64,000 nucleotides of DNA, from IMG/VR virus record IMGVR_UViG_3300023084_000009, positions 30,337 to 94,336 of that record. One strand, 5' to 3'. The notes below the pieces were generated by a model, which was not told the DNA's origin, did no database searches, and saw nothing but the letters and a program-made list of their open reading frames with translations. Both the position numbers and the translations under genes were made by a program. This DNA is from a virus. The first letter of the stretch is position 1; every line of letters starts with the position of its first letter. Below, piece by piece: positions 12,865-62,951 of this stretch.

Positions 12865-12888
12865 AGTTACAAATTCAAGATGATTTAT

Positions 12889-28380: not shown

Positions 28381-29090
28381 CTAACGTCATTCGCATACTG
28401 AACAAAAGGTCCTTGAGAATTAACGTAGTGAAGAAAGATCTGATGATGGTATGTATCATCTTCTTTTCTCCTAATCGTTCTCCAAAGATTCTTGACCTTG
28501 CTATGCCTACTTTCTAGTGGATCTCTCCAGTGCTCACGCTCGCAACCCTTATAAACAGCAGCATCACCATTCTTCATTACAACACATGACTCACTACCAT
28601 CAGGTCTTTCAAACCAAATAGGCCAAGGTTTATCTGAGTTTGTACTAATTTGAAGAGTTACACTAATTTCACATGCTGGACGATCACTATGCCGACTTAA
28701 CTCTTGACCAAGATAATAAAAGCGATCATAGAAATAAGTGGGAAGTAAATCAATGCCTAAGCATTTTTCTATTTCTTTACGAACAATGTAATGTAACTGC
28801 TTGTACATTGGTACATTATATCTGGCAAGAGATCCATTTACTTGCATCTCTTCTGGTTCAAAAATAACCTTATCCTTACGGACATAGTTCATTTGACCAG
28901 ATAGTCTTTTGCCAGTTTCATCCAGTGGAGGAGAACAATACAGGTTTTCAGGATCTAAGATAAGTCCAGGAAGAAAAAGATAACCATTCTCTTCAAAGGA
29001 CTTATTCTTTGTCATGTCTGTGGTTGTTGGAAGGCAAGTACGACTATACCCCTCAGCATAAGAACCACCAGTCGATACATACTCTTTCAT
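28377..29090 (-). CDS. 2OG-Fe(II) oxygenase-like protein (237 aa)
   Basis: Start at ATG 29090, forming TGATG with the stop of the first oxygenase. The core has QELSRHSDRPACEISVTLQIS with His134 and Asp136 as the HxD pair. GDAAVYKGCEREHWRDPL supplies His187 with a nearby Arg. HHQIFLHYV gives the last strand. This is the double-stranded beta-helix iron enzyme layout. The N-terminal 60 residues read as an anchoring or substrate-binding part. Substrate unknown. It is the second gene of a two-gene unit behind a perfect sigma70 promoter. Confidence 0.72.
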   Translation of the reverse strand: MKEYVSTGGSYAEGYSRTCLPTTTDMTKNKSFEENGYLFLPGLILDPENLYCSPPLDETGKRLSGQMNYVRKDKVIFEPEEMQVNGSLARYNVPMYKQLHYIVRKEIEKCLGIDLLPTYFYDRFYYLGQELSRHSDRPACEISVTLQISTNSDKPWPIWFERPDGSESCVVMKNGDAAVYKGCEREHWRDPLESRHSKVKNLWRTIRRKEDDTYHHQIFLHYVNSQGPFVQYANDVR

Positions 29091-29707
29091 CACTTCCACC
29101 TCGGACCAACTACCCATCCAACAATACTCTTACGCAAACCAGAACGTACTTTACGAACTCTATGGGGAGTACGTGAATCAAATACCATCAAAGTTCCTCT
29201 TTGCTTTGGTGCAAAATAGGTCTTACCACTATTGTCTAAGAACTGAACTTCACCACCAGTATATTCAGAAGGATCAGAAAGTTGTAGTGCAAAAGAAAGT
29301 TTCCTTATGTATTCACCATTTAAAGTTACTTGATCCTCGGCAAGATTGTTACCAGAACCAGCAACGATTTGTGGTTTATAACAAGTGTCTATACCAGCAT
29401 CAATGTGCCACTTATAGAATTGTCCTTCTCCATACTGTGTGTATTGAATATTTCCACCATCAATCTCTGTCAGATCATAGCAAAAATTCTCACGATTTAC
29501 CTTGTCAATGTAGTACCACAACCAACCACCAATCCAGTGAGAGGTTGGAACCCATACATTTTTGCTATTACGAATGACTTTATCTACTTCTGCACCCATG
29601 ATTTGAGAATCTTGTGCCTGTTCATCAAATCTTTTAAGGTCTTTTTCGATAATTTCTACAATGTCAGTTGGCATCTCAGTCATGTGCCAACATGTTAAAT
29701 ACGCCAT
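29090..29707 (-). CDS. 2OG-Fe(II) oxygenase (prolyl-hydroxylase-like, 205 aa)
   Basis: A classic 2OG-Fe(II) oxygenase. The HxD motif is FYKWHIDAG (His101, Asp103), the distal ligand is RTPHRV (His182) and the 2-oxoglutarate anchor is LRKSIVGW (Arg192). KLSFALQLSDPSEYTGGEVQFLD is the family's strand region. It hydroxylates a protein or small molecule with iron, oxygen and 2-oxoglutarate. Prolyl 4-hydroxylase/PiuC-type enzymes are its closest look-alikes. It is driven by the promoter at 29732-29760, in the midst of late fibre genes. Collagen-like fibre repeats on both sides make attractive substrates, but this is inference. Confidence 0.85.
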   Translation of the reverse strand: MAYLTCWHMTEMPTDIVEIIEKDLKRFDEQAQDSQIMGAEVDKVIRNSKNVWVPTSHWIGGWLWYYIDKVNRENFCYDLTEIDGGNIQYTQYGEGQFYKWHIDAGIDTCYKPQIVAGSGNNLAEDQVTLNGEYIRKLSFALQLSDPSEYTGGEVQFLDNSGKTYFAPKQRGTLMVFDSRTPHRVRKVRSGLRKSIVGWVVGPRWK

Positions 29708-36584: not shown

Positions 36585-39500
36585 TTATCCTAATGCGATT
36601 GCCAACGCGATTGCTTCATCACTTGCAGTAGTAAGTACACTGACTCCATCTATCTGAACATCCGTCGAACTATTTATACTACCGTTTGCGTCTAGACCAC
36701 CTGTAATGGTTACACCAACACCAGTGGTTTCAAGTGTCTTATTATTATTGTGGTAAAGTTCTATAGCACCACCACTAAAGAATTTAGCTAAAGTAGAAGT
36801 CTTGGTGGTAAATAATATATCACCACTTGTAGTATTATTCTTAATGGTAAGATCACCACTTCCATTAAAAGTCAAAGCATCAGAACTGAGAGATGTTCTA
36901 TTTGAACCTCCTGTAGCATGAACTTCAATCCTATTTTGGAAGTACGAAAGACCAGTAACACCGAAAGTACCTGCTACTGATACGTTGTCATGGAACGTAG
37001 AAACACCAACAACATCTAATCCACCACCAGTAACTCGAAGACCAGCACGAGCAGTGGCAATACCAATCGAATCTTGGTTGGTAACATTCTCATAAGTAAG
37101 ATCACCAAGAACTGTTACGTTTCCACTGAACTCGGCACTAGTAGCAGTAAGAACACCAGATACATTTACATTATCTAATTCGGTATGACCAGTTACATCA
37201 ATACCACCAGCAGTGGTTTCAAACTTAGTAGAACCATTATGATTTAACTTAACTGATCCTCCACCAGTTGCATAGATTGCCGTTGTTCCACCAGCAACCT
37301 GAACTTCAAAATCATCTCTAGATTTAATAACAATATCATCTCCACCAGGACCCTCACCAGCCGTAGTGGTTTCAATAATAAGATCTCCTTCTCTATTAGT
37401 AATAGAACTATTAGTTCCGTCATGTTTAATGGTTAGATCCTGCGAAGAACCGAAAGTTACATAAGAACTATCTGGAAGCGAAAAATATCCAGGAGATGAA
37501 TTCCATGATGCAGTATAAGTATCACCCCTAAAAGCAACATAACCCTCAGCGTTAATTCCTTGAGAGAATGTAGAGATTCCAGAAACACCTAATTGATTTG
37601 AGAAAGTAGTTCCAGTGACAGTAACACCAGCACCAGTGGTTTCAAATGTTTTACCTCCACCATAATATAATGATACGCCAGCATTATTGGCAGCGTACAG
37701 CATAGTGGTGCCATCTTCATCTGCTAGATAAAGATCACTACCACGAATCTCTAATCTCCCAGATCCAGATTCGTTAATATAACTGCTATTTGTTGCAGAG
37801 TCATGATAAATCTGTAAGTCTTGACCAGCACCAAATCTTAGTCTGTCGTCATCACCAAGATTTACATTACCTTGGAATGTAGAAACACCAGTTACATTTA
37901 ACTGACCAGTCGTTGTGGTTCCAACGATGTTGACACCCGATGTAGCAGTTTCAAATTTCTTAGAGTTGTCGTAGTAGAGTTCTACTGCTCCGTTTGTGGT
38001 GAATTTTGCTTTGGTTTCCGAAATTGACCCATCAGTAATAACAACATCATTATTACCACCAATATATAAACTTCCAGTTCCAGCATCAGTAATATTACTG
38101 CTTGATCCATTATGCCAAATCTGTAAGTCATTACCATCACCAAGATTAATCTTATCATTATCACCAAGGAATACATTGTCATTAAAGGTGCTGACTCCAA
38201 CTACATCTAATCCACCACCAGTAATTCTTAAACCAGCACGGGCAGTAGCAAGACCAACAGAATCAACGTCAGTAACGTCCTCATAAGTCAAATTACCAAG
38301 AACGCTTAGGTCTCCAGTAATTACTGCACTAGCAGCAGTAAGAACACCAGATACATTTACATTATCTAATTCGGTATGACCATCAACATCAATGTCAGCA
38401 TTAAGATCAATATCACCAGTGAATACTGAAACTTGCTGATTGTTAATTCTAAATGCTTCAGATCCATCAGTATTAAATCTAATAGTTCCATCAGATCCAG
38501 TATCATCAAGAGAAATCGAAGTATCACCCTTTTGTAATGCAGATACTTGGAGAACGGATGCCGTTAGAATTCCACTAACATTTAAATTACCAGTAATATT
38601 AGTCTCACTGGATCCACCAGGATCAATAGTGATGTCACCAGAAGTCGATGAAAATGTGTTAGCAGCAAGTTGAAGGTTGCCAACAGTTAAACTAGTTGGA
38701 GTAATTAAAGTCTGATTGGATCCACCATCAGTAACGACAAGGTTTCCAACATTCTCTAGGTCGTAAGATGTAGAAGCAAAACTTACTTGACCTGTTTCTT
38801 GATTAATGTAAAGAGAATCACCTACGCGGAAATCTCCACCTTGGTCAATACTTACAAAAGAAACTTGACCACTGTTAAGTTCAACTACCTCGTTTGCCTG
38901 AATAACTGTGGTTGGATCATTGGACATATCCTTTCCAGATCCAACATGGTTGAAGTTCATGGCAAAGAGTCTTAACTGAACTCCTACACCATCAGCAACT
39001 ACACCCTGAGATCCGTATTCAACAGCACAACCAACCGAGCGCATTTCTGCACCAAACATGGTGTAATCAGCAAAACTGATTGCACTAGCAATACCAGTGA
39101 AAGTAGTACCATCAGACTGATAAAACTCAACTCTTTGAGTGGTTCCAATACCTACCGAAGTAAATGTCCCATATCCTTTGCCACTAATCTTGGCATAAGG
39201 ATCATCATAATTTGTAATTGTTCCGACAGCAACTACAGAACCACCAGAATCAAACAACTTAACAACATCATTAACTGATGGTGTAACACTTGGTGTTCTA
39301 AACTTAAGTCTTGCTTCGGCAGTTCCAGCAATACCAACTGTTCCCGAAGTACCTACAATAGCTTGAGAAGAGAAATAATGGAAGCAATTCAAATACTCTG
39401 CACGAGCACCGTTCGTGAGAACAACACCTTTATTATTTGGAGTGAAGAAGGTAACCTCATTAAAGAGCATACCTGCTTCTAATGAATTACTTGCTACCTT

Positions 39501-41360
39501 AGATCCATCAACTAACGCACCACGACCAGCAATGTAACTAGTTGGTGGTGAATCTGCAGTATCATAACCATAAGGATCAGTGAAACTAGTAGATGATCCC
39601 TTGTTTAAAACAGTTACTCTCTGGATATAAGGACTTCTAGTCGTGATTGCGATACCAGTTGCATAAGAGAATACATAACCAGTATCATCAGTAGAATTAT
39701 AAAATCCATCTTTGACTGTAAAATCTTCAACTGTGGAAAGATCATTTAGTAAGAGAATATTATTTGTCTTTGTAGCATCGGTTGGTTTAATAGTTGTTGC
39801 TCTAAGACCCGCACCCTTTAGAGTAACTCCTCTAGGAACTGTAAGGGGAACTGTCTCTTCATATGTACCAGAAGAAACATTAATTATATCCCCATCTGCT
39901 GCTACACTTAATGCTTGAGCAATAGTAAGATATGGTTCATTTATATTATCACCACTATTCGAATCGCTACCTGTAGTGGCAACATAATAAGTCTTTCCAA
40001 GTGCATTGAGATCCCCATCAAATCTGGTTGCAGTTGCAACACCAGATACATTCAATGCATCTAACTCAGTATGACCATCTACATCTAGATCAGCATTTAG
40101 ATCAATATTATTATTAAAAGTAGAAACTCCTACTACATCTAGACCACCATCAGTAATTCTTAAACCAGATCTAGCAGTAGCAATTCCTACAGAATCGACA
40201 TTAACTACATCCTCATACTTAAGAACACCACCTACTGTAAGATCACCACTGAAAGTTGCGCTAGTAGCAGTGAGAACCCCAGCAATATTAACGTTATCGA
40301 GTTCGGTATGACCATCAACGTCTAAATCACCATCGACATAAAGATCACTTTGGAAAGTACCAACACCAACGAATGTGGAAACACCAGAGACTCTTAGAGT
40401 ATCAAGTTCAGCATGACCATGTACATCTAGATCAGCATTGAGATCAATGTTTCCTGAGAATGTAGAAACACCAGAGACTCTTAGAGCATCAAGTTCAGCA
40501 TGACCATTTACATCCAGATCAAATGTGGTAACAATACCACTAATATTAACGTTATCAAGTTCAGTATGCCCATCTACATCGAGATCACCATTGAGATCAA
40601 TGTTTCCTGAGAATGTAGAAACACCAGAAACGTTTAAGTTATCAAGTTCGGTGTGTCCATCTACATCTAAATCACCATTAAGGTCTGTGTTTCCTGAGAA
40701 TGTAGAAACACCGGATACTCTTAATTGATCTACTTCAGCATGACCAATTACATCAAGCGTATCAATACCATTATTAAAAGTAGCAACACCAACTACATCT
40801 AGACCACCATCAGTAATTCTTAAACCACTTCTCGCTGTGGCAATACCGATGGCATCAACGTTAATTACATCTTGATAAGTAAGAGTTCCACCAATTGATA
40901 CATTACCACTAAACTCAGCACTACTAGCAGTAATAACACCAGTTACGCTCATGTTCGTAACTGTTTGTTGATTAACCTGGAAGGTTGTTGCAGTAAGTAA
41001 TCCTACGTTAAACTGGTCAGCTTCAATACCAGTTGAGTGAAGGAAAGAACTACCAATTCTAAATCCATCACTATCAATTGTTGCTGCAGTTCCTACAGTA
41101 ATTTTATTTTCATTTGGGTCAAGAGTAATAGTTCCCGATCCAACGGAAAGAATGCCTACTACTCTTGCATCACCATTAACATATAGTTGTGTTCCCGCAG
41201 CACCAACAGCACCAACTTCTAATGTGTATCTTGGCAGAGTCGTTCCGATACCAACACTAGTGACTCCCACCGTAGCAGAAATGCTTACCTGTGAGACATC
41301 ACCCTGTTTATCGTAATTTAGAGCTCTTGCTACTTGAGATAACTCAGAAGGAAATGCCAT
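36585..41360 (-). CDS. Large tail fibre with beta-helix domain (1591 aa)
   Basis: The N-terminal domain (PSELSQVARALNYDKQGDVSQV) leads into many copies of the module [21 protein letters not shown]. Residues about 447-906 are the beta-helix domain shared with the 1251- and 2223-residue fibres (YYVATTGSDSNSGDNINEP start). The remainder alternates between LGDNDKINLGDGNDLQIWHNG strands and TATSAEFSGNVTVLGDLTYE modules. It ends SDEAIALAIALG with no S74 domain. A trimeric beta-structured shaft is probable. Two of three beta-helix copies share long identical DNA stretches (see findings). A late element (41368-41381) precedes it. Confidence 0.75.
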   Translation of the reverse strand: MAFPSELSQVARALNYDKQGDVSQVSISATVGVTSVGIGTTLPRYTLEVGAVGAAGTQLYVNGDARVVGILSVGSGTITLDPNENKITVGTAATIDSDGFRIGSSFLHSTGIEADQFNVGLLTATTFQVNQQTVTNMSVTGVITASSAEFSGNVSIGGTLTYQDVINVDAIGIATARSGLRITDGGLDVVGVATFNNGIDTLDVIGHAEVDQLRVSGVSTFSGNTDLNGDLDVDGHTELDNLNVSGVSTFSGNIDLNGDLDVDGHTELDNVNISGIVTTFDLDVNGHAELDALRVSGVSTFSGNIDLNADLDVHGHAELDTLRVSGVSTFVGVGTFQSDLYVDGDLDVDGHTELDNVNIAGVLTATSATFSGDLTVGGVLKYEDVVNVDSVGIATARSGLRITDGGLDVVGVSTFNNNIDLNADLDVDGHTELDALNVSGVATATRFDGDLNALGKTYYVATTGSDSNSGDNINEPYLTIAQALSVAADGDIINVSSGTYEETVPLTVPRGVTLKGAGLRATTIKPTDATKTNNILLLNDLSTVEDFTVKDGFYNSTDDTGYVFSYATGIAITTRSPYIQRVTVLNKGSSTSFTDPYGYDTADSPPTSYIAGRGALVDGSKVASNSLEAGMLFNEVTFFTPNNKGVVLTNGARAEYLNCFHYFSSQAIVGTSGTVGIAGTAEARLKFRTPSVTPSVNDVVKLFDSGGSVVAVGTITNYDDPYAKISGKGYGTFTSVGIGTTQRVEFYQSDGTTFTGIASAISFADYTMFGAEMRSVGCAVEYGSQGVVADGVGVQLRLFAMNFNHVGSGKDMSNDPTTVIQANEVVELNSGQVSFVSIDQGGDFRVGDSLYINQETGQVSFASTSYDLENVGNLVVTDGGSNQTLITPTSLTVGNLQLAANTFSSTSGDITIDPGGSSETNITGNLNVSGILTASVLQVSALQKGDTSISLDDTGSDGTIRFNTDGSEAFRINNQQVSVFTGDIDLNADIDVDGHTELDNVNVSGVLTAASAVITGDLSVLGNLTYEDVTDVDSVGLATARAGLRITGGGLDVVGVSTFNDNVFLGDNDKINLGDGNDLQIWHNGSSSNITDAGTGSLYIGGNNDVVITDGSISETKAKFTTNGAVELYYDNSKKFETATSGVNIVGTTTTGQLNVTGVSTFQGNVNLGDDDRLRFGAGQDLQIYHDSATNSSYINESGSGRLEIRGSDLYLADEDGTTMLYAANNAGVSLYYGGGKTFETTGAGVTVTGTTFSNQLGVSGISTFSQGINAEGYVAFRGDTYTASWNSSPGYFSLPDSSYVTFGSSQDLTIKHDGTNSSITNREGDLIIETTTAGEGPGGDDIVIKSRDDFEVQVAGGTTAIYATGGGSVKLNHNGSTKFETTAGGIDVTGHTELDNVNVSGVLTATSAEFSGNVTVLGDLTYENVTNQDSIGIATARAGLRVTGGGLDVVGVSTFHDNVSVAGTFGVTGLSYFQNRIEVHATGGSNRTSLSSDALTFNGSGDLTIKNNTTSGDILFTTKTSTLAKFFSGGAIELYHNNNKTLETTGVGVTITGGLDANGSINSSTDVQIDGVSVLTTASDEAIALAIALG

Positions 41361-41383: not shown

Positions 41384-41977
41384 TTACTCAGTATCAAAGA
41401 AGAACATATGAAATAGTCTAGAATCATACTTATCGTATCCAAAATATTTAGATGCTGTGTGGGGACACTTGGCATCCCAGATTACCAATCTATTAAAAAC
41501 ATTGGCGACAACATCAATGTGATCCCATGGTGTGGGATCTAAATGTTTGTTCCTCCAAATGATGTCGGATCCCTCAGTACTTACATGTCTAATGCGTGTT
41601 TCTTTATGAGAAAGTAAAGAAGTGCCACATTCATACGGTGCATCTGGTGTCAGATAAACAGTCGCTGCCCAAGTCTGAGCATCGGCATGATAAACCAGAG
41701 CATCTTCACAAGTACAGTGCTGGAACCTAGCACACATACCATGAACATCTGTCCAATTAGTAATTCTCCTCCCCATAATGGATTCAAATTTTTCTTTAGT
41801 TCCAGTAACTTCATACTGATGCTCAGTTCTCCTACCTCGGTGATAATCACTAAAGTGATAGTCTAAGGAAAGAGCAAAGTTTCGAATAGCAATTGGATCT
41901 TCATAAAAGTTTTCAACAACCCAAAGAGTGGGATTTGGGTTTTGATTTAATTTTGCATCTCCTAGGAAATATTTCAT
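41384..41977 (-). CDS. 2OG-Fe(II) oxygenase-like protein (197 aa; DUF6445-like)
   Basis: NPTLWVVENFYEDPIAIRNFALSLDY is the typical N-terminus of this oxygenase group. VYHADAQTWAATVYLTPDAPYECGTSLL supplies HxD (His97, Asp99) and the strand region. NRLVIWDAKCPHTASKYFG supplies the distal His173, and Arg187 (SRLFHMFFF) could hold 2-oxoglutarate. The family number is from memory. The start overlaps the stop of the radical-SAM fusion gene (ATGA), so the two are translated together. Substrate unknown. Confidence 0.72.
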   Translation of the reverse strand: MKYFLGDAKLNQNPNPTLWVVENFYEDPIAIRNFALSLDYHFSDYHRGRRTEHQYEVTGTKEKFESIMGRRITNWTDVHGMCARFQHCTCEDALVYHADAQTWAATVYLTPDAPYECGTSLLSHKETRIRHVSTEGSDIIWRNKHLDPTPWDHIDVVANVFNRLVIWDAKCPHTASKYFGYDKYDSRLFHMFFFDTE

Positions 41978-44130
41978 GTCAGTTCTGGGGGTTTAACGGC
42001 ATTCTCACAAAAACGGCAGAGATTAAAGCATTGGAAGTTATCTGGGATAACATCTTCATAAGATTGTTCATAGAGATTTCCAAGAATATGCTCAAGACCA
42101 TAGTCCATACAACAGAGTGATACATCACCATTTGGGAGCATCACATTGTGATACATCTTCTCAAGACAACCACAGGTCATCTCTTGCTCACCATGATAAA
42201 TGGAACGATACTCATCCTTGCGATTGAGTAGTTCTGGTTTCATAATACTTTCACCAAGAAGATTTCCTGCTCTAGACCACATAGCATATACGGGAGCATC
42301 CGTGAAAACATGTCGCACACTTTCATGTACTGTTCCCATACACATAGTAGTAAAGTTATTGATCTGGGGCCAAACTTTACTGAAGTGTTCGATCACTTCA
42401 ATGTATCTCTTAGTGATAGGATGCTTTGCTTTTCTTTCTTGATCGGGTAAGTGAAGAACAAATCCACCATTTGGTCCACCAGCAAAAGGAATGTGTTTGA
42501 TGCGATCAATATCCTCAATACTCATGCCAATACCAGTGGTAAAGATTGAGATGGGATGACCCTTTTCATGAGCATAAAGAACCATATCAGTGCAGTTCTT
42601 ATTCAACCAAGGTTCAGTAAATCCAGCAAAGGTTACACGAACTTCTTGTGGAAGTTTATCAACTGCTTTCTTGAAGTTATCGAGCGTCATAAAACGCTCA
42701 CCTTTGTAAGACTTTTGAAGAGTTCTTTGTGGGCAGAAGACACAATCAACTACACAACCGTTTTGAGTGTCGATAGAAGTGGTGAATTCCATCGTTGGGG
42801 CAATAGAGTTTTTCCACTTGTCTTTTGGTTGCTCTCTATTGTCAATGTATAGATTGATTTGTTCATACTTTTCAATGAACCAATCATCCCATAAAGCCCA
42901 CTTCATATCAACATAGTCGATAGAATAGATTTCATGTTTTGGAAATTCTCTGAGATAAGTATCCCTAAACTTTCTAAACTTAACTTTGTTTTCTGGAGTA
43001 TCTAGGTGCCACTCACCAGCAATCTTACTGACATTTTTGCGAATCCAATCCATATTTTCATCATTGAAAATATCATACTCACCACCTTCACAATCAGTCT
43101 TAAGAAAATCAATTTTTGGAATATTATTTTCCCTAACAAAATTCATAAAATTAACAGATGGAATTGTATTCTCATTTTCATCCTCAGAGGCATAAACAAG
43201 ACTCTGATTAAAAAGACCACATGTTTTTAATGAACCATCTTCTGGTCCAATTGCTTTATTTGTAAGAACAGTATTACTATCCTGCACATTTTCAACAAGA
43301 TCTTTGAAAAGATCTGGGTGTGGTTCAAAGCAATAAACCTTTGCTGGATTTTGTTCTTTGATTAAATGTACAAATGGACCAACACTCGAACCAATATCAA
43401 AAACAATATCTCCTTCTTCTACCTTAAAGAATTTTTGATAGACATTATCAACAAAAATTTCTTTTTCGACAGTTCTCTTAAACCATTCGTTATTTGCAGC
43501 ATGTCCCCAATTGAAATCTCTCAATCTCTTGGGTAGATAAACTCGATGGAGATCTTTTCCAGTATCTCCCAGTTTTTGGAGATTGTTTTTAACTGCAGTT
43601 AAATGAATTTCATCCAGAGGATAGTTCAAGAAAAGATCTTCAAGAATATCTCTAGCTTCATTGCACAGTCCAACCCACCATGCTGCTACTGCTTTTTCAA
43701 AACGAATACCATAATATCCAGGATATTCAACATCAACACCAAGTTTTTCTTCTGGATCTTTATCGGCAACTTTCTCACCGATAGAAGCAATCAAAAATGC
43801 ATCGTGATAGTTCTCTTCTCTTTCATAAAAGCGACTCAGAAGAAAATACCCTTCAGGACGATTTGGCATAATTGTCAAACCATGCTGATACAATCCCTTA
43901 ACGGTAAAGTTTCTACACCCCTGCTTACTGAAACAAATGCCAGCACGAAGAATACATTGATACTTAATAATATCTTGATCGGTTCTCTCTGCTGCTCTCA
44001 AATAGTAGGAGACTGCAGATGCTGTTTGATTAAGTTTATCGTAATAGATTGCCAGATTTAAATTGTTATCAACATTTTCTGGATCGGCAATAAAACTATA
44101 AAGCAAATTGCTCAACATTTTATCATTCAT
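41974..44130 (-). CDS. TPR / FkbM methyltransferase / radical SAM fusion protein (718 aa)
   Basis: Three parts are visible. Residues 1-200 are TPR-like helices (NLNLAIYYDKLNQTASAVSYYLRAA, RPEGYFLLSRFYERE). Residues about 205-410 form an FkbM-type SAM methyltransferase. This part has VFDIGSSVG with Asp245 and Gly247, VYCFEPHP and FLKTDCEGGEYDIF. Residues about 445-718 form a radical SAM enzyme with NGCVVDCVFCPQ (Cys459, Cys463, Cys466) for the 4Fe-4S cluster. Its C-terminal auxiliary-cluster region is SPASM-like (LPNGDVSLCCMDYGLEHILGNL, then CFNLCRFC). FkbM enzymes usually O-methylate sugars; radical SAM/SPASM enzymes modify peptides or sugars. Both neighbours overlap it, so it is part of one operon. 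Confidence 0.82.
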   Translation of the reverse strand: MNDKMLSNLLYSFIADPENVDNNLNLAIYYDKLNQTASAVSYYLRAAERTDQDIIKYQCILRAGICFSKQGCRNFTVKGLYQHGLTIMPNRPEGYFLLSRFYEREENYHDAFLIASIGEKVADKDPEEKLGVDVEYPGYYGIRFEKAVAAWWVGLCNEARDILEDLFLNYPLDEIHLTAVKNNLQKLGDTGKDLHRVYLPKRLRDFNWGHAANNEWFKRTVEKEIFVDNVYQKFFKVEEGDIVFDIGSSVGPFVHLIKEQNPAKVYCFEPHPDLFKDLVENVQDSNTVLTNKAIGPEDGSLKTCGLFNQSLVYASEDENENTIPSVNFMNFVRENNIPKIDFLKTDCEGGEYDIFNDENMDWIRKNVSKIAGEWHLDTPENKVKFRKFRDTYLREFPKHEIYSIDYVDMKWALWDDWFIEKYEQINLYIDNREQPKDKWKNSIAPTMEFTTSIDTQNGCVVDCVFCPQRTLQKSYKGERFMTLDNFKKAVDKLPQEVRVTFAGFTEPWLNKNCTDMVLYAHEKGHPISIFTTGIGMSIEDIDRIKHIPFAGGPNGGFVLHLPDQERKAKHPITKRYIEVIEHFSKVWPQINNFTTMCMGTVHESVRHVFTDAPVYAMWSRAGNLLGESIMKPELLNRKDEYRSIYHGEQEMTCGCLEKMYHNVMLPNGDVSLCCMDYGLEHILGNLYEQSYEDVIPDNFQCFNLCRFCENAVKPPELT

Positions 44131-45100
44131 TAGTCAAAAACTCCTCCAAAACAGTCTCAGGAAACTTAAGCAAATAGGCAGCATTATCTTGGAATCCAAA
44201 AGTCATGAGCATATTTTCCTTATGTATGGCAAGACCAACGCAGAACTCTACGTGACCACCCATGATAAAGAACTTGTTTGACCACTTCACAAGATTAAAA
44301 TCTTTATCCCAGAAAAGAACTCTGTGATAATAAACAGCATCTTTTCTACCAACTTCACTCTTGAACAAATCAACTTCATGAGTGATAGCAACATACCCAC
44401 CTTTCCAAGGAATGACCTGAGATCCTCCACGAGGATACCCATCCATGTTTTTACCTTCCCTTGTGAATAGTTGTTCAGAAGTTCCAGTTGTAGGATTAAC
44501 TTTAACCAGTTCTGTCGGATTGCTCCACTTAATATAGTGGTATGGCATATCAGTAACTGGCATCCAATTCTTTTCACAATAAGAATTTGGATCTAGTGGT
44601 GGTTGAATTCTTGTTTGTGATACTTGCTTTACGGCATTGTTCTCAACAACAAGTTCGCACAATTCCATTCTTCCTGTTCCAACAGTGTCCTCATCTCTAC
44701 GGACACCAGAATAGAATAGTTTGTTACCCCAACGGAAAAGACGAGCATCTTCTAGACCAACAAAATCCCAGAGCTCCTTGTCTGGAAACTTTGATGTATC
44801 TACTTTGTTGCAGCGAACAACATCATAATTATCATTCAATTCCAAATAATAATTCCAAGTTCTAAGATGAATATCATCCTCAGGATGGACATAAGTCAGA
44901 GGACCATACTGATGTTGAAATAATTTTTCTTCGGAATGGTAGAAAGTATAATTAACAGATCTAAGATTAACCATAACCTTATCACCATCAACAAAAACTG
45001 ATGGGTTCATCAAACCCAGACCACCAGTTAAGTTGGGATCAACAATTAAAGGATGTATAGATCCACCCTGCTCAATGGCAGATTGTGCGAATATCTTCAT
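44123..45100 (-). CDS. GH130-like five-bladed propeller protein (325 aa)
   Basis: The protein contains LMNPSVFVDGDKVMVNLRSVNY and WDFVGLEDARLFRWGNKLFYSGVRRDE. It also has EKNWMPVTDMPYHYIKWSNP and GGSQVIPWKGGYVAITHEV. The GLEDARL, EKNW and G-G-xxV...H-V elements match the GH130 family of glycoside phosphorylases and its relatives, which act on beta-mannosides and related sugars. So it may cleave, transfer or bind a sugar. It is the first gene after a perfect sigma70 promoter and overlaps the methyltransferase/radical SAM gene by eight bases, suggesting a shared sugar or peptide substrate. Confidence 0.7.
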   Translation of the reverse strand: MKIFAQSAIEQGGSIHPLIVDPNLTGGLGLMNPSVFVDGDKVMVNLRSVNYTFYHSEEKLFQHQYGPLTYVHPEDDIHLRTWNYYLELNDNYDVVRCNKVDTSKFPDKELWDFVGLEDARLFRWGNKLFYSGVRRDEDTVGTGRMELCELVVENNAVKQVSQTRIQPPLDPNSYCEKNWMPVTDMPYHYIKWSNPTELVKVNPTTGTSEQLFTREGKNMDGYPRGGSQVIPWKGGYVAITHEVDLFKSEVGRKDAVYYHRVLFWDKDFNLVKWSNKFFIMGGHVEFCVGLAIHKENMLMTFGFQDNAAYLLKFPETVLEEFLTNE

Positions 45101-45125: not shown

Positions 45126-45154
45126 ATTATATATTAGATTATCAAAAGTGTCAA
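45126..45154 (-). promoter_or_regulatory. Perfect-consensus sigma70 promoter for the tailoring operon
   Basis: The minus strand reads TTGACA (45154-45149), 17 bases, TATAAT (45131-45126). Predicted start is near 45119, about 19 bases before the ATG at 45100. The -35 box overlaps the last codons of the 109-residue gene. Confidence 0.85.
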
Positions 45155-46747: not shown

Positions 46748-49700
46748 TTATAAAACTAATACACAGGTATCGTCAACCGTAACGGTGACTCCATTTTCAA
46801 TATCATATGTAATATCATCTTGCAGATATGATGGAATTTTTCCATATCCGACTTTTTGCATTCCACCCAATGTAATACTAGTTTGGAACACTGAGCGAAT
46901 GTTATCATCAAAAGAGTCACCTCTAAGTAAATTAGTTCCACCAATTTCTCTACCATAGTAGTTCATATCAAAATCAGTTTTATCTGTTATGGCAAGAACA
47001 CATCCATCATCAACATAAACAGTAACACCACTCTCAATATCAACTGTCGATGATGGGTGAGTAAAGACTTCACCAAACTTTTGGGGAGATCCGATCGTGG
47101 TATTAGTATCAAACCCACCATAGTGAGTGAATAATACCTTATTAATTTGTTCTATGTTACGAACATCAGGATCAATGGTAATATCAGCTCTCGATCCAGT
47201 AATTGCAAATGTATTTCCAACACCAAGGAAGTTTAGTGTTGTCAGTGGTCCATAAGAAACAGGAGATCCATTAGAACTAATACCAATATTATATCCTTGA
47301 GTTGCTGTTACATAACCAACCAAGGAGACTTCATTGGAAGAAGCAAAATATCTCAGATTATTTGAACCAGTTGCAACGTTAGATGAGTTCTTGAAAAGAA
47401 TCTGGTTAGCACTAGCGACAACTGGTCCAGGAATACCTTGAGTACCCTGTGTTCCATTAGTTCCTTGTCTTCCCTGAACGCCCTGAGCACCGGTAGCACC
47501 CTGAGCACCAGATGTTCCCTGTCTTCCCTGAATACCTTGGATACCTTGAACACCCTGAGTACCAAAAGCACCCTGAGCACCAGTTGTTCCTTGAATACCT
47601 TGAACACCCTGAGTACCCTGCCTTCCTTGTGTTCCCTGAGAACCTGTAATTCCTTGGATACCCTGAGTACCCTGAGTTCCTTGAACACCTTGGATACCTT
47701 GAGTACCTTGAGAACCTGTAATTCCTTGGATACCCTGAGTACCCTGAGTTCCTTGAACACCCTGAGTTCCTTGAACACCTTGAGTTCCTTGAGTTCCTTG
47801 AACACCTTGGATACCCTGAATACCTTGAACACCCTGCAGAGCTGCATTAGAAATAGTCGCTTTTTTCAGATCACCAACATCAGCATCATAAAGAAGAATA
47901 TAGTCACTTCCAGAAGGTTGACCAACAGTCAATTCTGCACGATTATTAATAACTCCAGCACCAACCGTAGTTAGAGAAGAATTAGTAACTCCTGCACCAA
48001 GAGTTGTAGCAGAGAGAACATCGGTGCTATTAATTTGATAAGAGTTACCACTGGTGACATTTACATCATCATTAAATGTAGAAACGCCAACTACATCCAA
48101 TCCACCACCAGTAATTCTTAAACCAGAACGGGCAGTGGCAATACCAATAGCATCAACATTGACAACGTCTTCATATTTAAGAGTTCCACCAACAGTAACA
48201 TCACCACTAAATGATGCAGAGGTTGCTGTTAGGAAACCAGTAATTCTTGCATTATCAAGTTCAGTGTGTCCAGTGATGTCAACACCACCAACAGTGGTTT
48301 CAAATTTCTTGGAGTTGTTGTAGTAGAGTGATACTGATCCATTGGGTGTTGCTACTAACTGATTTTCATTTCCTGTTCTCGTCCTTAAAAGAATAGAACT
48401 ATCAGACCTCAATACAAGAGAACCAACATTAACATCGTCAATAATACTATTAAGTCCATCGTGGAAAATCTCTAAATCTCCACCATCACCCAATCTTATC
48501 TTATCATTATCACCAAGATTTACATTACCTTGGAATGTAGAAACACCAGAGACGTTTAAGTTATCAAGTTCAGTATGCCCATCAACATCTAAATCACCAT
48601 TAAGATCAGTATTACCAGTAACCGTAACAATACCAGAAGCAGAAATATTTCTTGTGGTGATATCTTCACCAAGAGATGCTCCACCATCAACAACAAGATC
48701 AGTTACATAAAGTGTCTTAGCATATGCATCATTTTGGAAAGTAGCAATTCCAATAAAAGTCGATAATCCAACAACTTCTAATTGATTAAATGATGCTGTT
48801 GTGGTATGAATTGTTACTCCAGATCCAACACTAATTGTATTAGTGTCTCCATTAATAGTAACAGATGAAGATCCAACTGTTAGAACACCAACGATTGATG
48901 CATCACCAGCAACATTTAGAGAATCATTAACAAAGACATCGTTCTGGAATGTTCCAATACCAGAGAAGGTAGAAAGACCAGCAACTTCAAGTTGATTGAC
49001 AGATACTGTTGTGGTATGAACGGTAACACCAGATCCAACACTAATTGTATTAGTGTCTCCATTAATAGTAACAGATGAAGATCCAACTGTTAGAACACCA
49101 ACAACTTGAACATTATTAGAAATGGTCAGGTCACCAGAAACAGTAGCACCAACACCAGTGGTCTCAAATTTCTTGGAGTTGTCGTAGTAGAGTTCTACTG
49201 CTCCGTTTGTGATGAATTTTGCCTTTGTTTCATTTATAGAAGCATTTGCAATAACAACTTCGTTGCTACCAGCAATATACAAATTGCCTTGTCCAGTATC
49301 AACTAAATTAGTATGAGCACCAGTGTGTCTAATACTAAAATCATCATTATCACCAAAATTTAGTCTTACATTATCACCAAGATTTGCATTTCCTTGGAAT
49401 GTAGAAACACCAGAAACATTCAGTGTTCCACGAACATCTAACTTAGCAGTTGGATTTGTGGTTGCAATGCCAACATTACCATCAGAATCTATAACTGCTC
49501 TCTCCGACCCTGCAGTAAAGAATGTCAGAGCATCTTCATCTGATCCAGGAGAAGACTCTGGTTTAATATAAGTATCTCCATCAACGTCCTTAACACCACC
49601 AAGAGATCCCCAATCATTACCAGGACCAAATCCTTCAAACTGTGAATTAGTTGTATTATATCTAATCTGGCCAGTGACTGCAGTTCCTACTGCATCTTTT

Positions 49701-52700
49701 TCTGCATCAGTTCCAACAGGAATTTGAATAGAGTTAGTGCTATCAAAGATAACTCTATCTCTAAATGTAGAAACACCAGTTGCTTCTACACCACCGGTAA
49801 TACTTACACCAGCACCAGTGGTCTCAAATTTCTTGGAGTTGTCGTAGTAGAGTTCTACTGCCCCATTTTCAGTATAAAGTAATGCGTCTTCGGTATTACT
49901 TTGATTGCGAAGACGTATAGTTGAACCAGTGATGAATATACCACCAACTCCAGTATCTTGAATAAAACTATTACTTCCACTATGATAAATCTGTAAGTCA
50001 TTACCATCACCAAGTCTCAGTCTATCATTATCACCAAGATCTACATTATCACTAAAAGTAGCAACTCCTACTACATCTAGACCACCACCAGTAATTCTTA
50101 ACCCAGAACGAGCGGTAGCGATACCAATAGCATCTACATTAACTACATCTTCATAGGTAAGAGTTCCACCAACAGTAACATCACCACTGAATGATGCACT
50201 AGTAGCAGTAAGAACACCAGCAATATTAACATTATCTAATTCTGTATGACCTTCAACATCTAGGTCTCCATTGAGATCAGTATTTCCAGATATTGTTGCA
50301 ATGCCTGCTACAGATAAATTTCCACTAGCAGTTAAACTTCTTGTACTTAAATCATCTCCAAGAGTAGCACCACCTTCAATATTAATCGAAGGTGCTGATA
50401 GAGTTCCTCCAACAAACAGATTACCCTCAAAGGTTCCAATACCAACAAAAGTTGATACACCCGAAACTCTGAGATTATCTAATTCCGTATGACCTTCAAC
50501 ATCTAGGTCACCATTAGCATCAATGTTTCCAGTAAAAGTAGAAACACCAGAAACAGTAAGATTGCCTCCATTAACATCTAAACTTCCATTGATAATTGTC
50601 TTATTAGATGCTGCAGGGTCAATAGTAATATCACCACTCAGTGATGAGAAAGTCGCATCGGCAAGCTGCAAATCACCAACTGTTATACTTGTTGGTGTAA
50701 TTACTGTCTGATTTAATCCACCATCAGTAACAGTCAAATTACCAGTGGTTTCTAAATCATAAGTTGTTGCAGCAAAACTTACATTACCACTTTCTTGATT
50801 GATATAGAATGCTTCACCAACTCTGAAGTCACCTTTATGGTCAATACTTACATAAGATACTTCACCATTATTCAGTTCTGTGACTTCATTTGCCTGAATA
50901 ACTGTAGTTGGGTCATTAGAAAAATCTTTACCAGATCCAACGTGGTTAAAGTTTAGAGCGAATAGACGTAGATTTACACCTAAACCATCAGCAACAACAC
51001 CCTGATCACCATACTCAACAGCACAACCAACTGAACGCAAGTCTGCGCCAAACATCTTATAGTCTGCAAGACTAATTGCACTGGCAATACCTGTAAAAGT
51101 AGTTCCGTCAGATTGGAAGAACTCAACTCGTTGAGTTGTACCAATACCAACGGAGGTAAAAGTGCCATATCCCTTTCCACTAATCTTAGCATAAGGTGAA
51201 TTGTAATTGGTAATCGTACCAACAGCAACTACAGAACCACCAGAATCAAACAACTTAACAACGTCGTTGACTGCTGGTGTCACTCCAGGAGTTCTAAACT
51301 TAAGCCTCGTTTCTGCGGTTCCAGCTATACCTACTGTACCAGATGTACCAACAATCGCTTGAGATGCGAAGTAGTGGAAACAGTTAAGGTACTCGGCACG
51401 AGCACCGTTCGTGAGAACAATACCTTTATTATTTGGAGTGAAGAAAGTAACCTCATTGAAAAGCATTCCTGCTTCCAATGAATTTGAAGCAACTTCAGAA
51501 CCATCAACCAATGCTCCACGTCCAGCAACATAAGTCGTTGGTGGATTGTCAGCAGTATCATAACCATAAGGATCAGTAGCACTAAGTGTAGATCCAGTAT
51601 TAAGAACCGTTACCCTTTGAATATAAGGGCTTCTGGTCGTGATGGCAATACCAGGAGCATATGCGAAGGCATAACCAGTATCATCGGTAGAATTATAATA
51701 TGAATTTCTGACAGTAAAATCTTCTAATGTTGATACATCATTCAGTAAGAAGACATTATTTGTTTTTGTAGCATCACTAGGTCTGATTGTAGTTGCTCTT
51801 AAACCAGCACCCTTTACAGTAACACCTCTAGGAACTGTCAGTGGAACTGTTTCTTCATAGGTTCCTGCCGAAATATTAATAAGATCCCCATTACCAGCAA
51901 CACTCAGTGCCTGAGCGATAGTAAGGTATGGTTCGTTTATGTTGTTACCACTGTTCGAATCGCTACCTGTAGTGGCAACATAGTACGTTTGTCCAAGCGC
52001 ATTGAGATCACCGTCAAATGAGGATGCGGTAAGAATGCCAGATACATTTACATTATCAAACTCGGCATGACCATCTACATCTAGATCAGCATTTAGATCA
52101 ACGTTTCCTGAGAACGTAGAAACACCAGTTGCTTCTACACCACCAGTAATACTTACACCAGCACCAGTGGTCTCAAATTTCTTGGAGTTGTCGTAGTAGA
52201 GTTCTGCCGAACCGTCAACATTAAACTTTGCTAGTGTTTCAGTGTTTACCTGATTGCCAATAACTACTGAAGCATCTCCAAGTAGATTTAGATTTCCAGT
52301 TCCAGTATCTTGAATATAACTTTGTCCACCAGAATGATATATTCTTAAATCATTACCATCACCCAAATAGATTGTATCATTATCACCAAGATATACATTT
52401 CCTTGGAATGTAGAAACACCAGAAACATTTAAGTTATCAAGTTCAGTATGCCCATCAACATCTAGATCAGCATTAAGATCAATGTTTCCTGAGAAAGTAG
52501 AAACACCAGTAACACTTAAATTCCTAGTTGAAATATCATCTCCAATTGATGATCCACCTTCAACATTAAGAGCTGGTGCATATAAAGTACCACCAACATA
52601 AACATCACTTTCAAACGTACTAACACCAACGACAGTAGAAACACCAACTACATATAAAGTTCCACCCTCAATATTTCCAGCAACGTCTAAACTCTTATCA

Positions 52701-53419
52701 ACAATAACATCTTCATAAAAAGTAGAAAATCCAGTAATGCTTAACTGGTTTGCAAAACTAGATCCAAAGACAGTAACACCAGCACCAGTGGTTTCAAACT
52801 TCTTAGAGTTATCATAGTATAGTTCTACTGAATCATTGGGTTTGAAAACTGCTATTGGTTCATCACTAGTATCCTTTCGGATAGTCATGTTTGAATCACT
52901 TTCTACAAATAATTCACCAGTATTATTTTTGATGTAACTATTAGTTCCATCATGATGTATTTCTAGATCATTACCAGCACCAATTCCCAGTGTAACATTA
53001 TCATCAAGATTTACATTATCGTTAAAAGTAGAGACTCCTACTACATCTAGTCCACCACCAGTAACTCTCAGTCCAGCTCTTGCTGTTGCAATTCCTACAG
53101 AGTCAACATTGACTACATCTTCATACTTAAGAACACCACCAACGGTTACATCACCACTGAAGTTAGCGGATGTTCCATTTATTGAACCGATAAATGTTGA
53201 AATACCATTTGCAGTTAAGTTTCTAGTTATAATATCATCGCCAATCGAAGCACCACCACCAGAACCCGAAGTTAAAGCGCCAGCAATATATACATCGCTC
53301 TGAAACGTACTTATTCCAGAAACAGCAAAAGCACCACCAACAAAAGCGTCTGTTGAAGTGATAGTTGATGCTGTACCTATCTCTAGACCGTTCTTTACCC
53401 TAAAATTTTGTGTTCCCAC
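46748..53419 (-). CDS. Giant tail fibre with beta-helix domain and collagen-like block (2223 aa)
   Basis: The largest gene in the window, starting with GTG at 53419. Repeated modules ([57 protein letters not shown]) make up most of it. Residues about 467-926 are the third copy of the beta-helix domain (YYVATTGSDSNSGNNINEP start). Residues about 1860-2006 are collagen-like. The C-terminus repeats DIE-x-GVTV-x-VDD-x-CVL twice and lacks an S74 domain. A 74-base perfect repeat (48819 and 49029) and a 72-base-period repeat near 47640 show internal duplication. It is probably a long trimeric fibre. Confidence 0.75.
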   Translation of the reverse strand: MGTQNFRVKNGLEIGTASTITSTDAFVGGAFAVSGISTFQSDVYIAGALTSGSGGGASIGDDIITRNLTANGISTFIGSINGTSANFSGDVTVGGVLKYEDVVNVDSVGIATARAGLRVTGGGLDVVGVSTFNDNVNLDDNVTLGIGAGNDLEIHHDGTNSYIKNNTGELFVESDSNMTIRKDTSDEPIAVFKPNDSVELYYDNSKKFETTGAGVTVFGSSFANQLSITGFSTFYEDVIVDKSLDVAGNIEGGTLYVVGVSTVVGVSTFESDVYVGGTLYAPALNVEGGSSIGDDISTRNLSVTGVSTFSGNIDLNADLDVDGHTELDNLNVSGVSTFQGNVYLGDNDTIYLGDGNDLRIYHSGGQSYIQDTGTGNLNLLGDASVVIGNQVNTETLAKFNVDGSAELYYDNSKKFETTGAGVSITGGVEATGVSTFSGNVDLNADLDVDGHAEFDNVNVSGILTASSFDGDLNALGQTYYVATTGSDSNSGNNINEPYLTIAQALSVAGNGDLINISAGTYEETVPLTVPRGVTVKGAGLRATTIRPSDATKTNNVFLLNDVSTLEDFTVRNSYYNSTDDTGYAFAYAPGIAITTRSPYIQRVTVLNTGSTLSATDPYGYDTADNPPTTYVAGRGALVDGSEVASNSLEAGMLFNEVTFFTPNNKGIVLTNGARAEYLNCFHYFASQAIVGTSGTVGIAGTAETRLKFRTPGVTPAVNDVVKLFDSGGSVVAVGTITNYNSPYAKISGKGYGTFTSVGIGTTQRVEFFQSDGTTFTGIASAISLADYKMFGADLRSVGCAVEYGDQGVVADGLGVNLRLFALNFNHVGSGKDFSNDPTTVIQANEVTELNNGEVSYVSIDHKGDFRVGEAFYINQESGNVSFAATTYDLETTGNLTVTDGGLNQTVITPTSITVGDLQLADATFSSLSGDITIDPAASNKTIINGSLDVNGGNLTVSGVSTFTGNIDANGDLDVEGHTELDNLRVSGVSTFVGIGTFEGNLFVGGTLSAPSINIEGGATLGDDLSTRSLTASGNLSVAGIATISGNTDLNGDLDVEGHTELDNVNIAGVLTATSASFSGDVTVGGTLTYEDVVNVDAIGIATARSGLRITGGGLDVVGVATFSDNVDLGDNDRLRLGDGNDLQIYHSGSNSFIQDTGVGGIFITGSTIRLRNQSNTEDALLYTENGAVELYYDNSKKFETTGAGVSITGGVEATGVSTFRDRVIFDSTNSIQIPVGTDAEKDAVGTAVTGQIRYNTTNSQFEGFGPGNDWGSLGGVKDVDGDTYIKPESSPGSDEDALTFFTAGSERAVIDSDGNVGIATTNPTAKLDVRGTLNVSGVSTFQGNANLGDNVRLNFGDNDDFSIRHTGAHTNLVDTGQGNLYIAGSNEVVIANASINETKAKFITNGAVELYYDNSKKFETTGVGATVSGDLTISNNVQVVGVLTVGSSSVTINGDTNTISVGSGVTVHTTTVSVNQLEVAGLSTFSGIGTFQNDVFVNDSLNVAGDASIVGVLTVGSSSVTINGDTNTISVGSGVTIHTTTASFNQLEVVGLSTFIGIATFQNDAYAKTLYVTDLVVDGGASLGEDITTRNISASGIVTVTGNTDLNGDLDVDGHTELDNLNVSGVSTFQGNVNLGDNDKIRLGDGGDLEIFHDGLNSIIDDVNVGSLVLRSDSSILLRTRTGNENQLVATPNGSVSLYYNNSKKFETTVGGVDITGHTELDNARITGFLTATSASFSGDVTVGGTLKYEDVVNVDAIGIATARSGLRITGGGLDVVGVSTFNDDVNVTSGNSYQINSTDVLSATTLGAGVTNSSLTTVGAGVINNRAELTVGQPSGSDYILLYDADVGDLKKATISNAALQGVQGIQGIQGVQGTQGTQGVQGTQGVQGTQGTQGIQGITGSQGTQGIQGVQGTQGTQGIQGITGSQGTQGRQGTQGVQGIQGTTGAQGAFGTQGVQGIQGIQGRQGTSGAQGATGAQGVQGRQGTNGTQGTQGIPGPVVASANQILFKNSSNVATGSNNLRYFASSNEVSLVGYVTATQGYNIGISSNGSPVSYGPLTTLNFLGVGNTFAITGSRADITIDPDVRNIEQINKVLFTHYGGFDTNTTIGSPQKFGEVFTHPSSTVDIESGVTVYVDDGCVLAITDKTDFDMNYYGREIGGTNLLRGDSFDDNIRSVFQTSITLGGMQKVGYGKIPSYLQDDITYDIENGVTVTVDDTCVLVL
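47638..47761. repeat. Collagen-block repeat with 72-bp period
   Basis: Bases 47638-47689 recur at 47710-47761, identical over 52 bases and spaced by exactly 72 bases. The unit encodes Gly-x-y triplets of the 2223-residue fibre. Confidence 0.85.
48819..49102. repeat. Duplicated fibre module (74-bp perfect repeat)
   Basis: Bases 48819-48892 and 49029-49102 are identical and lie 210 bases apart, which keeps the reading frame (70 codons). They encode the VLTVGSSSVTINGDTNTISVGSGV module. Confidence 0.85.
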
Positions 53420-60583: not shown

Positions 60584-60695
60584 CACATTTTCCTCTGGTT
60601 CCAGGTTTCCGATCATCTCTTTTCAAGTAGTAAAGATTTGGCCAAGTATCCATTATTATAGCACGAAGTTTGTCTGGTGTCTCAGAACTAATCAT
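60558..60695 (-). CDS. Possible small protein (45 aa)
   Basis: An ATG at 60695 overlapping the talC stop opens 45 codons (ISSETPDKLRAIIMDTWPNLYYLKRDD, basic end with two Cys). It overlaps the following gene's start by 26 bases in another frame. GGGG lies directly before the ATG, too close for an ideal ribosome-binding site. Weakly supported. Confidence 0.35.
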   Translation of the reverse strand: MISSETPDKLRAIIMDTWPNLYYLKRDDRKPGTRGKCDEREIPKC

Positions 60696-61347
60696 TCCCC
60701 TGAACAGAGTCCCAATCTTTTTGGAATTGCTCAAGACCCTTGTCGGTCAGAACGTTTTTGTACATTCCCCAAAAAACTTTAGGAGGAATAGTAACTACAT
60801 CAGTTCCAGCAAGAGCACATTGTTCTACTTGACGTACATCACGAACTGATGCACTCAAAATTTGAGTCGTTGTAAATTGACCGTTGCCAGTATATGCCTG
60901 ACGAATATCCTTAATAAGTCCAATACCATCAATAGAATTGTCCATCCAACGACCGACAAATGGTGAGACATATGCTGCACCTGCTTTCTCTGCAAGGATT
61001 GCCTGAGCAACAGAAAAAATTAGAGTTACATTAACCTTATACTGATTCATTGCAAGTGCCGTACAAGCTTTGAGACCCTCAACTGTACATGGAACTTTAA
61101 TAGTTACGTTCCACAAACCATTGAATGCTTGTGCTTGATCTATCATCTCTTCGGCAGTATCAGCAACGACTTCTGCAGAAACGGATTGCAAACTAGAGAA
61201 AGAAGTAGAGATCTCTTTAATAACTTCTACCGGATCTCTTCCACTTTTTTTGATAAGAGTTGGATTAGTCGTTACCCCATTTACTAATCCAGTTTCATGT
61301 GCCTTTGCAATTTCGGTAACGTCGGCGGTATCTAGAAAAATTTTCAT
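60688..61347 (-). CDS. talC: Transaldolase TalC
   Basis: A 219-residue TalC/fructose-6-phosphate aldolase-type transaldolase. MKIFLDTADVTEIAKA is the family start and NGVTTNPTLIKKSG the substrate loop. Lys84 in VTIKVPCTVEGLKA is the Schiff-base lysine. ISPFVGR-type sequence (AAYVSPFVGRWMD) and a Thr/Ser-rich late strand also fit. It moves dihydroxyacetone units between sugar phosphates. In cyanophages it pushes host carbon toward the pentose phosphate pathway for NADPH and nucleotides. It is in an operon with plastocyanin. Confidence 0.93.
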   Translation of the reverse strand: MKIFLDTADVTEIAKAHETGLVNGVTTNPTLIKKSGRDPVEVIKEISTSFSSLQSVSAEVVADTAEEMIDQAQAFNGLWNVTIKVPCTVEGLKACTALAMNQYKVNVTLIFSVAQAILAEKAGAAYVSPFVGRWMDNSIDGIGLIKDIRQAYTGNGQFTTTQILSASVRDVRQVEQCALAGTDVVTIPPKVFWGMYKNVLTDKGLEQFQKDWDSVQGND

Positions 61348-62285: not shown

Positions 62286-62951
62286 CTATTTAACGAAGTA
62301 CATGCGGCGACGATACTGCTCACCAGGACAATTTTCAAGGTGGTCAATCTCTTCTTCTGGGAGGAAGTTGATACCTCCAAGCAGTTTGGCACCAATGAAA
62401 ATATCAGCAGACTTCTCACACATTAAAGTGGCAGCAGCACAATCCTTTTGGTAGGGGGATGCTGTAATGATACCATGATTTTCCAAAAGAACTAACTTAG
62501 GAAAGTATCCATGCTCATCAACGAAAGCACCAACATACTTCTCTACATTTTTGAGTAGGCGAGCACCAGGAGGAGCATAAGGAACAAGGCAGGATACGAC
62601 ACCGTTTCTTACGATCTGATCTGGGAACCAACGTTGATAAGCAAAATCTTCTATCGCAGGAGAACAAAGAATCTGTGTGGTCTTTGGTGGATGTGTATGA
62701 GCAATATAATTGATTTCTGGAAAGTGCTTCATAATCCATGCATGGAATAGCACTTCAATACTTGGTTTCTTTTGATTTGGATTAATCTGTTTAGCGTCGG
62801 TATTTACTAATACTAAGTCTTCGTCTGTTAATGTATGAAGACTTGTGCCACTTGCTTTAATCAAAAATACATCTTCTTTCCATCTTTCTGATACATTTCC
62901 TTCACCACAGATAGTATAGTCAGCAATGGTATGTGCGAGGTCTAGTAGCAT
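62286..62951 (-). CDS. Class II aldolase/adducin-family protein (221 aa)
   Basis: Motifs of the class II aldolase family (fuculose-phosphate aldolase, ribulose-5-phosphate epimerase): GEGNVSERW, KASGTSL, catalytic Glu66 (SIEVLFH), zinc ligands His85 and His87 (AHTHPP) and His159 (LLENHG). These zinc enzymes cleave or epimerise sugar phosphates or methylthioribulose phosphate. Together with TalC it suggests redirected sugar-phosphate flow. The substrate cannot be told from sequence. A CTAAATA element precedes the gene. Confidence 0.8.
   Translation of the reverse strand: MLLDLAHTIADYTICGEGNVSERWKEDVFLIKASGTSLHTLTDEDLVLVNTDAKQINPNQKKPSIEVLFHAWIMKHFPEINYIAHTHPPKTTQILCSPAIEDFAYQRWFPDQIVRNGVVSCLVPYAPPGARLLKNVEKYVGAFVDEHGYFPKLVLLENHGIITASPYQKDCAAATLMCEKSADIFIGAKLLGGINFLPEEEIDHLENCPGEQYRRRMYFVK

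Follow-up and report, generated by a model that had tools for sequence, protein, structure and literature searches.

A viral fusion of TPR, FkbM methyltransferase and radical SAM-Twitch modules is one permutation of a re-wired cassette with a candidate role in glycan tailoring

A viral gene that joins TPR-like helical repeats (T), an FkbM-type methyltransferase (M1) and a radical SAM-Twitch enzyme (R) in a single polypeptide is one permutation of a modular cassette, and what stays constant among viruses is the cassette as a whole and not the T-M1-R fusion. The gene lies in a 64,000-nucleotide stretch of DNA (the window), positions 30,337 to 94,336 of the IMG/VR virus record IMGVR_UViG_3300023084_000009, where it overlaps an upstream gene, A, by 8 nt and a downstream gene, D, by 4 nt. 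The features of the region, in window coordinates, are:

36585-41360, minus strand: downstream flank, tail-fibre or baseplate-wedge-like protein (1591 aa; PHROGs)
41384-41977, minus strand: D, 197 aa, DUF6445-like, with 2OG-Fe(II)-oxygenase-type residues
41974-44130, minus strand: T-M1-R fused gene, 718 aa, TPR plus FkbM methyltransferase plus radical SAM-Twitch
41986-42825, minus strand: R, residues 436-715, radical SAM and C-terminal Twitch (PF04055, CX3CX2C, Twitch cysteines)
42835-43515, minus strand: M1, residues 206-432, FkbM-type methyltransferase (PF05050, TIGR01444, motif conservation)
43516-44130, minus strand: T, residues 1-205, TPR-like helical repeats (profile of relatives, modelled helix hairpins)
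44123-45100, minus strand: A, 325 aa, GH130/GT108-like five-bladed propeller
45126-45154, minus strand: sigma-70 consensus promoter TTGACA-17-TATAAT before A
46748-53419, minus strand: upstream flank, tail-fibre-like protein with collagen-like repeats (2223 aa; PHROGs and sequence)

A sequence-only reading of the window had reported an uninterrupted frame of 718 codons at 41974-44130, and we confirmed it as a single open reading frame on the minus strand, with stops interrupting the plus-strand reading. Since full-length relatives exist in other viruses (55-85% identity) and change is concentrated at third codon positions (differences of 0.12, 0.07 and 0.42 at positions 1, 2 and 3 in comparison to the relative at locus L003), the frame did not arise by chance. 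Pfam, NCBIfam and a TPR profile agreed with the proposed order of TPR, FkbM and radical SAM parts: Methyltransf_21 (PF05050) matched residues 245-390 (2e-11; 44.6 bits, Pfam cut-off 22.7), TIGR01444 (FkbM) scored 73.2 bits (E 2.8e-20; NCBIfam cut-off 37.7), and Radical_SAM (PF04055) matched residues 455-591 (2e-9; 38.3 bits, Pfam cut-off 29.5). TPR_17 stayed under its Pfam cut-off in the single sequence (2e-4), and a profile of residues 1-205 from ten relatives matched consensus TPR proteins, whose repeats are degenerate hairpins of 34 residues, at 1.5e-19. The motifs quoted in the earlier reading were all present as described and are conserved in about 50-70 relatives: VFDIGSSVG (243-251), KTDCEGGEYD (344-353), C459-x3-C463-x2-C466 and the Cys-rich LPNGDVSLCCMDYGLEHILGNL (665-686). 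The main FkbM residues of the SAM-binding and K-x-D-x-E-G motifs are kept in 48-49 of 49 relatives (S249 in 44), and the CX3CX2C cysteines in 68 of 68. Structure prediction, which that reading had put forward as a check alongside domain searches, bore it out in part: in the model, successive helix hairpins lead into a methyltransferase of good model quality, and the R region, with 12 sequences in the alignment, was modelled poorly (pLDDT only 35-85) with the barrel unreadable there. Homology of the whole 718-aa model to O-GlcNAc transferase was rejected, the best PDB fold matches having a TM of about 0.15 for a concatenation of TPR and Rossmann-like parts.

The same reading had called the C-terminus of R SPASM-like, and a SPASM Pfam match above cut-off does cover residues 655-702 (1e-4). 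A SPASM domain is defined by CX9-15GX4C-gap-CX2CX5CX3C-gap-C with two auxiliary clusters, and a Twitch domain is its truncated form with one auxiliary cluster, CX9-15GX4C and two downstream cysteines (PMC6231123). In R we found CX14GX4C and then only CX3CX2C; the pattern C653, G668, C673, C705 and C708 is kept in 68 of 68 relatives, the window lacks the later half of the SPASM motif of seven cysteines, and in 67 relatives no cysteine lies past C708. Because this pattern agrees with the published Twitch definition (PMC6231123) and the second half of SPASM is missing, the domain fits Twitch rather than SPASM, and from its sequence one auxiliary Fe-S cluster would be expected. As identities for R, the NCBIfam maturases, heme b synthase and viperin all scored far under cut-off. 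The only sensible match of R to a solved sequence, a weak one (E 0.004), was BtrN, which we take to be an oxidase acting on a cyclitol precursor.

The upstream protein A was modelled with a pLDDT of 88.9 and matched the GH130/GT108 propeller fold (Foldseek probability 1.00, TM 0.5-0.6, best E 5e-10), its top PDB neighbours being a gut mannoside synthase and GH130 mannoside phosphorylases, with Leishmania GDP-Man mannosyltransferases further down. At the sequence level A gave no significant match to GH130/GT108, its profile found no GH130 chain in the PDB, and there was no Pfam match. The same propeller fold also serves enzymes that cleave other sugars. At two loci (L136 and L174) a normal A gene is accompanied by a second A-like segment joined to M1 or T, which suggests duplication of the propeller module. 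The downstream protein D matched PHROG 1644 at 1e-27 and PF20043 (DUF6445, presumably a 2OG-Fe(II) oxygenase family) at 19.4 bits, below the cut-off of 24 that is passed by its relatives at L014 (31.7 bits) and L020 (26.4 bits); the HxD...H...R residues are kept in 73-74 of 74 relatives. The same tail-fibre run contains another 2OG-Fe(II) oxygenase gene (29090-29707, minus strand; PF13640, 3e-14), next to three genes that have no Pfam match.

The virus is a T4-like cyanophage. Its record (94 kb) encodes T4-type tail tube, baseplate, single-strand-binding and tail-fibre genes, and the cassette sits within a run of tail-fibre, baseplate-wedge-like and collagen-like genes. Elsewhere in the window (11858-13524, 60688-61347, 62286-62951) are genes for PhoH, ThyX (Thy1), a transaldolase/fructose-6-phosphate aldolase and a class II aldolase, which are usual accessory genes of T4-like cyanophages. 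The sigma-70 site, about 25 nt before A, is the sole 12/12 site in 36-54 kb. The motif NATAAATA/CTAAATA, presumably the T4/cyanophage late motif, occurs 20-50 nt ahead of many structural genes of the window; a late promoter for the window's cassette was rejected, as no exact motif is present and the sigma-70 site stands there instead. In relatives, the corresponding position before A is taken by either kind of motif: sigma-70-like sites with at most one mismatch in 8 of 84 distinct loci (0.4 expected), and late-type motifs in 34 of 82 (11.4 expected), many of them at -30 to -45. Judged by these promoter-like sites, the cassette appears to be transcribed as a unit of its own, under an early-type promoter in some phages and a late-type one in others.

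To describe the cassette across viruses, we ran eight module profiles (A, T, the FkbM types M1 and M2, the MT24-type M3, R, D and the GT17-like G) over fetched loci. These were the matches listed for pattern-based A or R queries of IMG/VR, and absolute frequencies are conditional on this choice. A was found in at least 590 and R in at least 204 IMG/VR viral stretches, so virus contigs from aquatic habitats commonly carry the module set; it is nearly missing from named phages, where A occurs in two cyanophages only and a full-length relative of T-M1-R in Synechococcus phage DSL-LC02 only. Among the matches listed, 111 distinct loci (de-duplicated via shared peptide keys; near-copies may remain) yielded 31 multi-module proteins, including T-M1-R (11 distinct loci), T-M2-D (10), T-R (8), T-M2-M1-R (7), A-M1-R (6), A-R (4) and T-M1-M1-R (3), and R stands alone in many; some rarer combinations, such as M1-R and M2-M1-R, may be contig-end fragments of longer proteins. 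The R tree implies at least 14 changes of fusion partner, and in relatives with R fused to A, T has moved to another gene. Module genes all lie on the same strand in 108 of 108 viral loci, A adjoins or is fused to T in 80 of 90, and of the 71 viral loci that have R, 60 contain A or T as well, most of the others being contigs shorter than 7 kb. The 31 combinations, the repeated partner changes, the single strand and the adjacency of A and T together argue that the modules work together. Carriers include T4-like phages, since gp23 is present in 6 of 12 large records tested.

This survey also bears on what the fusion had been taken to mean. Two consecutive SAM-dependent steps on a substrate held by the TPR part had been suggested; such a pairing is possible, but T-R proteins without a methyltransferase, R alone and A-R fusions exist, and because M1 is dispensable and R often separate, obligatory paired steps are not required. 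The architecture proved to be one permutation, present in 11 of the distinct loci, of a module set that is widespread in viral contigs and uncharacterised. That the three-part fusion had no prior description held in the literature searched, and the DSL-LC02 record says only 'FkbM family methyltransferase'. Likewise, the module set, the TPR/FkbM/radical SAM-Twitch fusion and its repeated re-wiring were not found in that literature, which covered few subscription journals.

Outside viruses, R has three Bacteroidales relatives, and a polysaccharide pyruvyl transferase gene precedes R in two of them, the third having unrelated neighbours; as both cases show the same local arrangement, they count as about one observation. 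At these two loci (L176 and L182), R is a distant relative preceded by MiaB-like radical SAM and polysaccharide pyruvyl transferase genes, with a sulfotransferase on the other strand; each is an uncharacterised cellular polysaccharide cluster. Two candidate cellular sources of R were rejected. The 3.5-kb Acidimicrobiia contig L175 (RGSV01000150.1) is probably a mis-binned phage contig, because its R groups at zero length with that of viral L065. The WOR-3 copy is the only one among 147 genomes of the phylum and was more likely acquired.

The fold of A, the glycosyltransferase partners and the Bacteroidales polysaccharide neighbours point to sugars, and we consider a glycan the probable substrate of the cassette, with moderate confidence. 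Cassette relatives include GT17, GT25, GT2, WavE, GT4/GT9 and rhamnosyl-O-methyltransferase-like domains, either as fusion partners or interleaved among the modules, and in named cyanophages D-like genes stand next to GT25, GT11 and fucosyltransferase genes. The window's operon has no glycosyltransferase gene; a GT17 profile gave no match over the window's own record, where a control was equally silent, and no member of the GDP-mannose dehydratase family turned up in the 94-kb record, itself perhaps incomplete. For the full mechanism, in which A, T-M1-R and D form a self-contained phage-encoded glycan-tailoring operon, we see the chances as evenly balanced. We infer its reactions, order of steps, acceptor and the role of T as follows. 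A would form or rearrange a mannosyl linkage, the FkbM domain M1 would O-methylate a sugar, and R would make one radical change on the same substrate class, our first guess being a BtrN-like oxidation of a sugar hydroxyl and our second an epimerisation. D would hydroxylate a sugar or an acceptor residue. T may be a docking scaffold that gathers each phage's enzymes on a shared acceptor or complex; because it would dock whichever enzymes are present, modules could be swapped without loss of the pathway.

The most likely target would be a glycan of a tail fibre or other virion protein, followed by a host surface glycan. Given a glycan substrate, a virion target seems to us roughly an even call, and a host-surface target a lesser but real possibility. 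Tail-fibre proximity and late-type promoters favour the virion: 61 of 99 loci are bordered by genes for tail fibres or collagen-like proteins. The sigma-70-type promoter of the window's clade lends no support to a virion target and, together with the way host recognition clusters are usually interpreted (PMC7029224), favours the host surface. Collagen-like genes as such were rejected as the target: the association is suggestive, but in four large genomes fractions of 0.04, 0.06, 0.31 and 0.57 of random positions lay as near, which is no nearer than chance in two of the four.

Of the rival explanations, the same glycan chemistry could act on the host envelope, altering LPS or exopolysaccharide during infection, for instance to exclude other phages. 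The early-type sigma-70 promoter of the window's clade, LPS-type domains such as WavE in relatives and the interpretation given to glycosyltransferase-bearing host recognition clusters (PMC7029224) are in keeping with this, but the operon showed neither a flippase nor a membrane glycosyltransferase, many relatives have late-type promoters and the cassette lies among structural genes; we regard this explanation as unlikely.

TPRs usually bind proteins. The T part would also suit modification of a protein or peptide. In this case T would bind a small peptide or a phage protein such as a collagen-like tail fibre, R would alter a side chain by radical chemistry, the FkbM domain would methylate either the backbone or a side chain, and D would install a hydroxyl on a residue, with glycosylation of that hydroxyl as the most that A would do. 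Twitch/SPASM enzymes act on peptides in other systems (PMC6231123), FkbM enzymes are tied to peptide products elsewhere (PMC9259500), Mimivirus L230 hydroxylates and glucosylates viral collagen (PMC9614988), and the NCBIfam radical SAM matches include, for one relative and below cut-off, the peptide maturase AlbA. We nevertheless judge this quite improbable: an unsystematic look at the operon noticed no precursor-peptide gene or peptide-recognition domain, and the fold of A and the glycosyltransferase partners indicate sugars. Phage accessory regions are mosaic, and a fortuitous joining of unrelated accessory genes with no shared function is conceivable on that ground, but the conserved motifs, neighbours and overlaps, the repeated re-joining of the same modules and the synonymous-biased change make it very improbable indeed.

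Returning to glycan tailoring, a broader and tentative reading, which we consider rather unlikely, is that aquatic T4-like phages combine a shared TPR/mannosyl-enzyme core with radical-SAM, methyltransferase, oxygenase and glycosyltransferase modules that can be exchanged, with re-wired fusions continually altering the sugars that coat the phage's tail fibres and a radical-SAM step taking part in virion decoration. If true, phages would have something comparable to antigenic or serotype variation. The cassette is often located where cyanophages hold receptor-binding genes; decorated tail fibres would add a glycan layer to host recognition by marine and freshwater phages, and an altered host surface would have consequences for superinfection and for which phage infects which host. 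Where radical SAM and FkbM chemistry is to be tested on sugars, domain boundaries can be taken from the fusions already swapped in nature.

Several known systems resemble parts of the cassette. The GH130/GT108 mannoside phosphorylases and mannosyltransferases share their fold with the model of A, but no significant sequence similarity. BtrN and other Twitch enzymes combine a radical SAM core with a Twitch domain and one auxiliary cluster, as R appears to from its cysteines; R differs in being fused to TPR and methyltransferase parts, and its match to BtrN is weak. PBCV-1 A064R is a single viral polypeptide with several consecutive domains, including a methyltransferase, that build glycan and act on a virion glycan (PMC9614988); it differs from T-M1-R in belonging to an algal virus and having neither TPR nor radical SAM parts, and is not homologous as far as tested. 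The host recognition cluster of pelagi- and cyanomyophages, a tail-fibre region with glycosyltransferases and radical SAM gene cassettes, resembles the window's region, but the module set, the fusion and the re-wiring are not described there (PMC7029224). In Synechococcus phage S-SCSM2R, whose recorded host is Synechococcus WH7803, genes 194-195 (PQ898602) encode A and then a T-containing fusion, with D, as in the window, but this fusion is T-M2-D, without R and M1. The same phage (L220, 32599-47258) has four genes annotated as 2OG-Fe(II) oxygenase in about 15 kb, besides D. Synechococcus phage DSL-LC02 (OR032571) annotates its genes WJZ48256-WJZ48258 only as a beta-mannosyltransferase and FkbM methyltransferases, its paper does not describe the radical SAM part or the architecture, and the orientation relative to the tail fibres is flipped, unlike in the window; these genes are the same three-gene cassette, with 71% identity across the fused protein.
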